Source of the DNA: Gemmatimonadaceae bacterium
GTDB lineage: Bacteria; Gemmatimonadota; Gemmatimonadetes; Gemmatimonadales; Gemmatimonadaceae
Assembly: GCA_025450035.1 (NCBI GenBank)
Contig: JANWIF010000145.1
Span: 1-36,411 of the forward strand
Length of the DNA stretch: 36,411 nucleotides
Direction of reading: 5' to 3'
Within the stretch, counting starts at the first letter, position 1; every line of letters starts with the position of its first letter. Position numbers and translations under genes: made by a program. A model generated the notes under the pieces. The model was not told the DNA's origin. It worked only from the letters and a program-made list of their open reading frames with translations, and did no database searches. This document shows positions 11,333 through 13,521 of this stretch, piece by piece.

Positions 11333-11448
11333 AGGTAAGAGGTAAGAGGGGAGGAAGAACATCAATGCATGCAGCCCGAGGGTTCTGCGCCGCGTGATCG
11401 CTACTGGCCACTTGCTACTCTCCCTCTCTCCCCTCTTACCTCTTACCT
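11333..11448. repeat. Long-armed intergenic inverted repeat, AGGTAAGAGGTAAGAGGGG class
   Basis: 19-bp perfect arms at 11333-11351 and 11430-11448 separated by 78 nt, between convergent genes. Confidence 0.85.
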
Positions 11449-12614
11449 GTTCCGAGTACCTGTGTCTCGTCGGCCGTGTTGGTCCTGAGCTTGGCGGGCG
11501 GGGGCGGGACGGTGCGTGCTGGTTCGGTGGAGAGCGGGATGATGACGCCACGCTCCTGTTCCGGTAGGCGTTGGGCGGTGGCGAGCGGTGAACGCGGGCG
11601 CGTCGAGAACGTGGCCGGACCGAGATCGTCGGGTGTTCGTTCGCGTCGCGCCGCGAGCGCGCGGTGCGCCGTGAACGCGCGCGGCACCACGGACCCGGGG
11701 CGCTGACGGACCATCGGGCGCGCGACGGCACGTCGCGGCGGCAGCGGGTGCAGTGGCGGCGCGCCCGGGGCAGGTCCCGCGGCACCGGTGCCTATGGTCT
11801 GGAGGGCCATCGCGTCGAGCATCGAGGGTGGCGCGCCCAAATCGACGCCGTTGGACGTGTCAAGAATTGGTGCATGTGCACGCGGTGGCTCGAGCGCTAC
11901 CAGTGTTGCGCGCGCGCCGCGCGTGGCGCCAGCGCAAGCGCACCCTGTCGGTAAGGCAACGTCGATCAAGACGTTCTGGCGCGTGAGCAGTCGCTGCGCG
12001 AGGTCCACCAGATAATCCGCGCCTTCGAGCTCAACGAGCGCGCGCCGCGGATCGCCGGCGGCGATATGTTCGGCCGATGGAACGCCGCCGGGAAGCGAGT
12101 AATACCGGCGCCGGTCTGGAGGCAGCACAGACTCAAAGAGCTCCGGTTGTTGGGCGGCGACGATCGCGCGTTCGGCAAACTGCGCCAGGAGGGACGCCGG
12201 ATCGAGGCGCGCGTCGATGCTGGCGTCCGCAGCGGCTGGGCACTCGCCGACGTACGTGATATGAACCTTGCGCTCGCCGAACGCTGCTCGGACGTACCGT
12301 GCCGTGGCGGCCGGCGGCGCGGGCAGCACGAGCATCCACGGGGCCAGCTCCATGCCTGCTTGCGTTAGGCGCTGGACGACGCGCGGACAAGCACAGAACA
12401 CGGCCGGCGCACCGGCATGATCGGCGAGATATCGCAAGGACTCCTGGGCCACGAGCTCGTCGCCCCAGCTCGCGGGGAACACCATGTCGTATCCCAGCGC
12501 ACGACAGGCATGCGCCAACTGCACGGATGTTGCGGGCAGCGCTGCCAGGACCGCATCGGCGCCGAGGATGGCTACCGAGGCAAGACTGGATTCCGTGAGC
12601 GGGCGGCGCGACAT
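11436..12614 (-). CDS. [FeFe]-hydrogenase large-subunit C-terminal-like domain protein with a proline-rich low-complexity tail
   Basis: FCACPRVVQRLTQAG-MELAPWMLVLPAPPAATARYVRAAFGERKVHITYVGECPAAAD; YYSLPGGVPSAEHI; VELEGADYLVDLAQRL; LPTGCACAGATRG, matching the order of the HydA-C/Nar1-like Cys motifs. Start trimmed to MSRRPLTESS; upstream codons are not GC3-rich. Confidence 0.65.
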   Translation of the reverse strand: MSRRPLTESSLASVAILGADAVLAALPATSVQLAHACRALGYDMVFPASWGDELVAQESLRYLADHAGAPAVFCACPRVVQRLTQAGMELAPWMLVLPAPPAATARYVRAAFGERKVHITYVGECPAAADASIDARLDPASLLAQFAERAIVAAQQPELFESVLPPDRRRYYSLPGGVPSAEHIAAGDPRRALVELEGADYLVDLAQRLLTRQNVLIDVALPTGCACAGATRGARATLVALEPPRAHAPILDTSNGVDLGAPPSMLDAMALQTIGTGAAGPAPGAPPLHPLPPRRAVARPMVRQRPGSVVPRAFTAHRALAARRERTPDDLGPATFSTRPRSPLATAQRLPEQERGVIIPLSTEPARTVPPPPAKLRTNTADETQVLGTGKR

Positions 12615-12651: not shown

Positions 12652-12798
12652 AATGAGTCGCTCAGCCTGGTACCATCATATTCGGCCCGTTCATTGCGGA
12701 TTCTAGCCGCCGAGTGCGGGCTTGAAGAACTGGAGAGAGTCCCGCGAGTGGCTTTGGACCTTACCGCGGCGGATGGACTAGATGTGTCTTCTGTCCTC

Positions 12799-13521
12799 AT
12801 GAAAGAAATCACACGATTGTCGCGCGAGCAACGGGAGTCGATCGGGAAATACGGTGCGCGCACGTTCTGGCCCGCCGGATTCGCGATCTACGAGTTGGGC
12901 GCGACGGCTGACGGCGTGTTCATCGTCGTGAGCGGTCAGGTGGCGCTCCGCAATCCAGTTGCGTCGGGGCGGAGTTTCGTACCGTGGGTGGCGACGCCCG
13001 GGGAGACGTTCGGCGGCGAGGGACTGGAAAACGACCCGCGGTATGCGAGCCAGGCGCGCGCCGAGGAGGAGACGGAGACGCTTCATCTGAGCACGGCGCG
13101 ATTCAGTGCGCTGATGCGCGAGCAGCCATCGCAGGCGCTCGCGCTAGTGCGCCAGTTGATGGCCGAGCGCACGGCGCTGCTTGAGAAGTTCGCGCAGTAC
13201 GCGACGCTCACAGTGGAGCAGCGGTTGGTTGCGGCGCTGGTGCACCTGGCGCAGAGCCGTGAAGTGCTGCCGGGCGACGTGAACGGCGACCCGGTGATGG
13301 TATCGCGGCGCCTGTTAGGCGAACTGGTCGGAGCGACACGTGAGTCGATCTCGCTGGTGCTTGGCCGGTTGTCCTCGGAGGGCCTCATACAGCGGGCGGG
13401 CAATTCGTTGATGATCGCCGACCTCGAGGGGCTCGTGGCGCGTCTCGTGCACCCGACTGCACGTCCTGGGATCGCGCTGTATGACGAGCGCGCGGCCAGC
13501 GAGGCGGACGCCCGGGAGTGA
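12799..13521 (+). CDS. Crp/Fnr family transcriptional regulator (start 12799 proposed; ORF open from 12484)
   Basis: cNMP-binding-like FAIYELGATADGVFIVVSGQVAL...GETFGGEGL; HTH VMVSRRLLGELVGATRESISLVLGRLSSEGLIQRAGNSLMI. Confidence 0.9.
   Translation: MKEITRLSREQRESIGKYGARTFWPAGFAIYELGATADGVFIVVSGQVALRNPVASGRSFVPWVATPGETFGGEGLENDPRYASQARAEEETETLHLSTARFSALMREQPSQALALVRQLMAERTALLEKFAQYATLTVEQRLVAALVHLAQSREVLPGDVNGDPVMVSRRLLGELVGATRESISLVLGRLSSEGLIQRAGNSLMIADLEGLVARLVHPTARPGIALYDERAASEADARE

Follow-up and report, generated by a model that had tools for sequence, protein, structure and literature searches.

A stand-alone [FeFe]-hydrogenase H-domain in Gemmatimonadaceae: probably no enzyme but an iron-sulfur sensor or adaptor

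What can the H-domain of a [FeFe] hydrogenase be good for once almost everything around it has gone? The question is raised by a gene of a Gemmatimonadaceae bacterium (GenBank assembly GCA_025450035.1; genome 81% complete, 3.5 Mb), which lies on contig JANWIF010000145.1; the window that we analysed is the whole stretch of 36,411 nucleotides from position 1. A first-pass annotation, made from the letters alone, had seen here a stand-alone, diverged protein resembling the C-terminal part of [FeFe] hydrogenases. Our answer is that the cut-down H-domain which some soil Gemmatimonadaceae have kept probably acts not as an enzyme but as an iron-sulfur sensor or adaptor. The open reading frame and coordinates of that annotation were right: the gene runs on the minus strand from an ATG at 12614 to a stop at 11436-11438 and encodes 392 residues (P0001), and the motifs that it had picked out could be placed at residues 73-81, 121-130, 171-177 and 221-229. 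Within the genus the core of P0001 is under purifying selection, with dN/dS of 0.15-0.23 over the first 262 codons and 0.38-0.58 in the tail.

11436..12614, minus strand: gene of the stand-alone H-domain-like protein P0001, 392 aa (open reading frame, homologues, purifying selection)
11829..12584, minus strand: H-domain-like core, residues 11-262 (PF02906, AlphaFold2, PDB fold matches, hhalign)
12372..12398, minus strand: L1-like motif FCACPRVVQ, residues 73-81 (Cys76 in 48/48)
12225..12254, minus strand: L2-like motif YVGECPAAAD, residues 121-130 (Cys125 in 48/48; without the following Lys)
12084..12104, minus strand: YYSLPGG segment, residues 171-177, within a conserved RRRxxSLPGGxP stretch
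11928..11954, minus strand: L3-like motif LPTGCACAG, residues 221-229 (Cys225 and Cys227 in 48/48; ungapped from Asp218)

The likeness to [FeFe] hydrogenases that the annotation had proposed is borne out by Pfam, by the AlphaFold2 core and by fold matches in the PDB. P0001 scores 27.3 bits against PF02906 (Fe_hyd_lg_C; cut-off 22.1), over residues 27-127 only, and several members of the stand-alone family score under the cut-off; NCBIfam gave P0001 a weak match only (FeFe_hydrog_B1, 17.5 bits against a cut-off of 450). The AlphaFold2 model, built with 38 relatives in the alignment, has pLDDT above 90 for 214 of the 392 residues, covering most of 11-260, and when it was compared with the PDB by Foldseek the first 50 matches listed were all [FeFe] hydrogenases (best E 4.4e-8), among them CrHydA1, CbA5H, CpI, a Desulfovibrio enzyme and TmHydABC, at TM-scores of 0.32-0.48 that are normalised by query length, which counts the 130-residue tail. 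Since a sequence search of the PDB reached only E about 0.1 with the profile of the stand-alone family, and gave no match at 1e-5 with a profile of the GGDEF-linked relatives described below, the link to the PDB rests on the predicted fold. The comparison with HydA suggested in the annotation thus has a clear outcome: the first ~260 residues are predicted to take up the [FeFe]-hydrogenase large-subunit fold, the H-domain of HydA.

From where might such a protein have come? Profile searches place the stand-alone family in 42 of 179 Gemmatimonadaceae genomes and 16 of 35 genera, and two peptide patterns run against 84,980 species returned 39 matches, all in Gemmatimonadaceae or other Gemmatimonadetes MAGs (in a genome-contig search the single P0001 sequence gave no match and an alignment as query succeeded). 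In other Gemmatimonadota families (f2, f7 and f9 here) the same H-domain sits at the centre of ferredoxin-H-FeS-GGDEF proteins, with hhalign linking the stand-alone family to these GGDEF-linked H-domains at a probability of 99.9 (E 2.9e-34). The FeS domain of the fusions reads Cx2Cx4Cx16C, the very motif reported from group C and group D sensory hydrogenases (PMC8163306). In our tree the stand-alone proteins (f1) make up a single clade with a long stem (100/99), sister to all GGDEF fusions, and a grouping of f1 with f2 was not rejected (AU 0.31). A more distant class, G203, contains ferredoxin-H-FeS-histidine-kinase and PAS-like versions, with PCxxKK retained in L2 at two loci, and every full-length relative that we examined in the phylum is a signalling protein. 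The F- and the FeS-domain are both present in the histidine-kinase outgroup, so that the stand-alone lineage most simply lost the two of them. A split FeS partner protein, possibly FeS-GGDEF, was sought through PF04060, a domain absent from the 15 genomes of the window's family that were searched, and in none of the genomes compared did a fusion clearly occur alongside a stand-alone protein. As for the fusions themselves, seen in other Gemmatimonadota families (loci L018-L030, L136-L168 and L177) with an intact GGDEF motif, the four genomes checked hold no HydF or HydG over cut-off, and these proteins are possibly diguanylate cyclases with an H-domain sensor for something other than H2.

Could P0001 be a hydrogenase all the same? 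That it is not one is well supported, because the accessory Fe-S domains are missing, L3 is changed and HydF and HydG stay below cut-off. No C299-type Cys stands directly before the L1 ligand, no [2Fe]-binding Lys follows the L2 Cys, and L3 departs from the canonical spacing with four cubane Cys. Both this Lys and the residue equivalent to C299 are important for the 2Fe site and for proton transfer. There is no Fer4 match for an N-terminal F-domain with two [4Fe-4S] clusters and no C-terminal Cx2Cx4Cx16C FeS domain (PF04060) in P0001; Pfam-A gave nothing over cut-off except Fe_hyd_lg_C, and the ferredoxin, PAS and kinase domains that the annotation had noted as lacking are indeed absent, as is GGDEF. 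The annotation had also seen no maturation genes in the window and pointed to the rest of the genome, where HydF and HydG are likewise unmatched over cut-off; the same models, for which Thermotoga maritima served as a positive control, found nothing over cut-off in 14 relatives either, several of them 97-100% complete. We read the raw HydF matches, all below cut-off, as other GTPases and those of HydG as other radical-SAM proteins. The earlier word 'non-catalytic' therefore stands, given the unmatched maturases, the altered L3 and the missing L2 Lys and electron-relay domain.

What the protein does keep is a set of cysteines. It has six in all (37, 74, 76, 125, 225 and 227), none of them N-terminal of residue 37, and in the comparison of orthologues that the annotation had recommended Cys76, Cys125, Cys225 and Cys227 are invariant in 48 of 48 family sequences (alignment at about 40-50% identity), with Cys37 and Cys74 varying. 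Cys76 and Cys125 coincide with the L1 and L2 ligand positions, and three of the family's Cys match cubane ligands of the H-cluster. In CpI numbering we take Cys76 to be at the position of C300, a cubane ligand, Cys125 at that of C355 and Cys225, as the second L3 Cys, at that of C503, with C499 as the position of the first L3 Cys, now missing. Cys225 is assigned as the second L3 Cys because the stretch from invariant Asp218 to Gly224-Cys225 aligns without gaps with the Asp..Gly-Cys of the GGDEF-linked forms, whose RRRHWSTAGG aligns with the RRRxxSLPGGxP stretch of P0001. In the stand-alone family, then, the first L3 Cys is missing and a new one, Cys227, follows the second at a distance of two residues. 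All four Cys are present in 6 of 12 sampled f2 proteins, while the other f2 proteins lack several or every one of them, and none is left in the four f7/f9 H-domains sampled; because these sister domains have partly lost their Cys, retention in the stand-alone family is selective. The Cys site is thus dispensable to the H-domain fold, yet it is strictly retained, in altered form, in the stand-alone family, where the four Cys would hold an Fe-S cluster. The annotation's suggestion of an Fe-S or sensory protein is one that we share, on the strength of the invariant Cys and of signalling-type relatives.

The remaining third of the protein is a tail.

11439..11828, minus strand: disordered Pro/Arg-rich tail, residues 263-392 (low pLDDT, composition, dN/dS 0.38-0.58)
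11637..11687, minus strand: conserved tail linear motif VPRAFTAHRALAARRER, residues 310-326 (34/49 tails)
11592..11612, minus strand: TFSTRPR, a tail segment conserved within the genus, residues 335-341 (four-way genus alignment)

The first-pass annotation had called it a Pro/Arg-rich low-complexity tail, and it is indeed rich in Pro (17%) and Arg (13%), free of Cys and predicted to be disordered, ending in ...GTGKR; it is more than low complexity, however, in that a linear motif, (L/V/I)PR(A/T)(Y/F/S)xA(R/H/L)R, was observed in 34 of 49 tails where 1.5 would be expected from shuffled tails. In about half of the relatives there is a single, strongly hydrophobic helix, which either ends the protein or has a further C-terminal stretch behind it. 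This membrane helix is lacking in the window's genus, and its distribution needs five changes on the tree. Several genomes hold a second copy of the gene in a different neighbourhood. A second paralogue, at seven loci, has a membrane helix in mid-tail, followed at three of these loci by a coiled-coil-like C-terminus (LEELRAIHAEIDARKRHMDSLTxSLDSLK), and in the window's genus it adjoins an acyl-CoA-dehydrogenase-like gene.

Does the neighbourhood say what the protein works with? The gene lies divergent to a regulator that the annotation had named as Crp/Fnr, an assignment that Pfam upholds as Crp/Fnr-type, with the start moved.

12799..13521, plus strand: divergent Crp/Fnr-type regulator (PF00027 and PF13545; 25 orthologues)
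12683..12697, minus strand: GCAATGnnnGGGCCG element between the two divergent genes (exact at 23 of 25 two-gene loci)

The most likely start is 12799 (MKEITR), which orthologues conserve; the upstream in-frame starts at 12484 and 12643 have no such support, and the choice leaves a divergent intergenic region of 184 bp. Across the 25 orthologues the recognition helix GATRESxSLVL is invariant and no Cys is conserved, an N-terminal cluster of Cys included, so the regulator is not an Fe-S sensor of the FNR ([4Fe-4S]) type. It is adjacent and divergent at 25 of 49 loci. Co-occurrence of the two genes, which the annotation had wanted checked, turns out to be a conserved neighbourhood with a promoter element and not a strict pair, either gene being found alone: 26 genomes have both, 16 only the P0001-type gene, 38 only crp and 99 neither (Fisher p 9e-5, uncorrected for kinship). 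The element GCAATGnnnGGGCCG is exact at 23 of the 25 two-gene loci and has two mismatches at the others, in intergenic regions that are otherwise unalignable; the copy in the window is the only exact one in the 3.5-Mb genome, and it shows no obvious palindrome. A site tied to the P0001 gene was considered and set aside, the element being absent upstream of P0001-type genes at loci without crp and present in degenerate form, in the corresponding position ahead of crp, where a genome lacks the P0001-type gene. We assign it to crp on the latter ground, as probably the regulatory site of the crp promoter, and it looks like a dedicated autoregulatory site of that gene; it is found before crp across the family (L031-L037, L061-L074, L179-L194). 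Co-regulation of the P0001 gene with crp through their common promoter region is plausible. Beyond the pair, a convergent M28-like peptidase gene downstream and an alpha/beta hydrolase gene beyond the regulator are widely syntenic, and no consistent GGDEF or kinase gene neighbour was recognised in the conserved gene neighbourhoods. At six loci, the window's excepted, a gene for a protein with MoeB/ThiF-like and rhodanese-like domains lies between the regulator (or the P0001-type gene) and the alpha/beta hydrolase.

Taking up what the computations gave on fold, ancestry, invariance of the Cys, missing HydF/HydG matches and conservation of the tail motif, we think with a probability of roughly 0.55 that P0001 signals in trans, either as a redox or gas sensor with a single cluster or as an adaptor, because its ancestors and sisters are of sensor type, its Cys site has been selectively kept and its flexible tail bears a motif. 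Such a protein would descend from [FeFe] hydrogenases of the sensory, group C/D-like type; their ferredoxin, C-terminal [4Fe-4S] and output domains have gone, as has the capacity for holding the 2Fe subcluster. Its cubane pocket would present the original ligands Cys76, Cys125 and Cys225 together with Cys227, a relocated replacement for the first L3 Cys, and this four-Cys site could bind a [4Fe-4S] or other Fe-S cluster. The redox or gas-ligand state of the cluster may then alter the shape of the H-domain, and the change may be relayed to a partner protein by the flexible tail with its PRA(Y/F/S)xAxR motif, the tail presumably being tied to the membrane by its C-terminal helix in many relatives and soluble in the window's genus. 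Where it is divergent to crp, the P0001-type gene is probably co-regulated with it via the common promoter region. The membrane helix in the C-terminal region of many relatives and the motif in 34 of 49 tails support a sensor or adaptor; against it count the CxC spacing of L3, which is unusual for a cubane, the lack of a fused output domain and of a consistent GGDEF or kinase neighbour, and the fact that Crp, the sole frequent regulator neighbour, is missing at about half of the loci. More tentatively, and with the odds somewhat against the full picture, a bacterial H-domain may have been repurposed here as a single-cluster sensor that dropped its hydrogenase modules, moved a ligand from CxxC to CxC and uses a disordered PRAYxARR tail, often anchored in the membrane, for signalling in trans.

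The strongest competitor, which we nevertheless think unlikely, is a structural protein or adaptor whose four Cys bind Zn or a structural Fe-S cluster and whose core is an interaction module that senses nothing, with the tail as its tether to the membrane or to a partner. Invariant Cys are compatible with a structural metal, the linear motif, like the membrane helix, points to scaffolding, and the persistence of the H-domain without Cys in f7/f9 and half of f2 implies a use without metal; that same loss tells us, however, that the fold needs no metal, and yet the stand-alone family always keeps all four. An Fe-S trafficking or assembly factor in the manner of Nar1/IOP1 would share a HydA-like body with a kept cubane site and a missing 2Fe subcluster (compare Nar1, PMC12621388), but seems improbable, given that the N-terminal four-Cys site (site 2 of Nar1) and the C-terminal Trp are missing, that the L3 spacing differs, that presence in 42 of 179 genomes of a single family argues against an essential assembly role and that no recurrent Fe-S assembly genes were recognised in the neighbourhoods, viewed overall.

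We give equally little credence to a role in electron transfer, as a redox carrier or as a subunit of some oxidoreductase: the lone cubane of an H-domain might pass electrons on, and relatives are membrane-tethered, but P0001 has no accessory clusters, and the conserved clusters inspected around the main copy contain no recurrent oxidoreductase neighbour. The idea of a catalytically active minimal [FeFe] hydrogenase has the fold alone in its favour and, with no HydF or HydG over cut-off and the C299-type Cys, the L2 Lys and the first L3 Cys all missing, is close to refuted. The stand-alone family and the partly Cys-less diguanylate-cyclase fusions form a graded series of the uses of an H-domain once the handling of H2 has gone, and in practice a PF02906 match in Gemmatimonadota should not count as hydrogen metabolism.

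How does P0001 compare with what is already known? Of the non-catalytic proteins with the [FeFe]-hydrogenase fold, eukaryotic Nar1 is the best known. P0001 is like Nar1/IOP1, which is HydA-like and keeps the cubane site without having hydrogenase activity (PMC12621388), in being a HydA-like protein that is not a hydrogenase; it lacks the N-terminal [4Fe-4S] site (there are no site-2 cysteines, nor any Cys before residue 37) and the C-terminal Trp for CIA targeting (it ends in ...GTGKR), its altered L3 departs from the canonical Cys pattern of cubane site 1, and it adds a long disordered tail. With the H-domain of HydA (PF02906) it shares the fold, the L1-L2-L3 order and three of the four cubane-ligand positions, but it has only ~260 such residues, Cys227 in place of the first L3 Cys, none of the 2Fe-binding residues, and no HydF or HydG over cut-off in its genome. 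Closer are the sensory groups C (M2f, TmHydS) and D (M2e, TamHydS), whose H-domains are, as in P0001, without C299 (PMC8163306) and whose ferredoxin-H-Cx2Cx4Cx16C layout is common to them and the phylum relatives of P0001 (PMC8163306, PMC13104023); P0001 differs in having no F-domain, C-terminal FeS domain, PAS or output domain, and in a genome where, judged on the HydF/HydG searches, H-cluster maturation is impossible. The ferredoxin-H-FeS-GGDEF proteins carry the sister H-domains (hhalign and tree) and, unlike P0001, retain two accessory cluster domains and a fused diguanylate cyclase, many of them without Cys in the H-domain. We found no description of proteins such as P0001 in Gemmatimonadota in the part of the open-access literature consulted, which is no proof of novelty, and the nearest published concepts are the group C/D sensory hydrogenases and Nar1.
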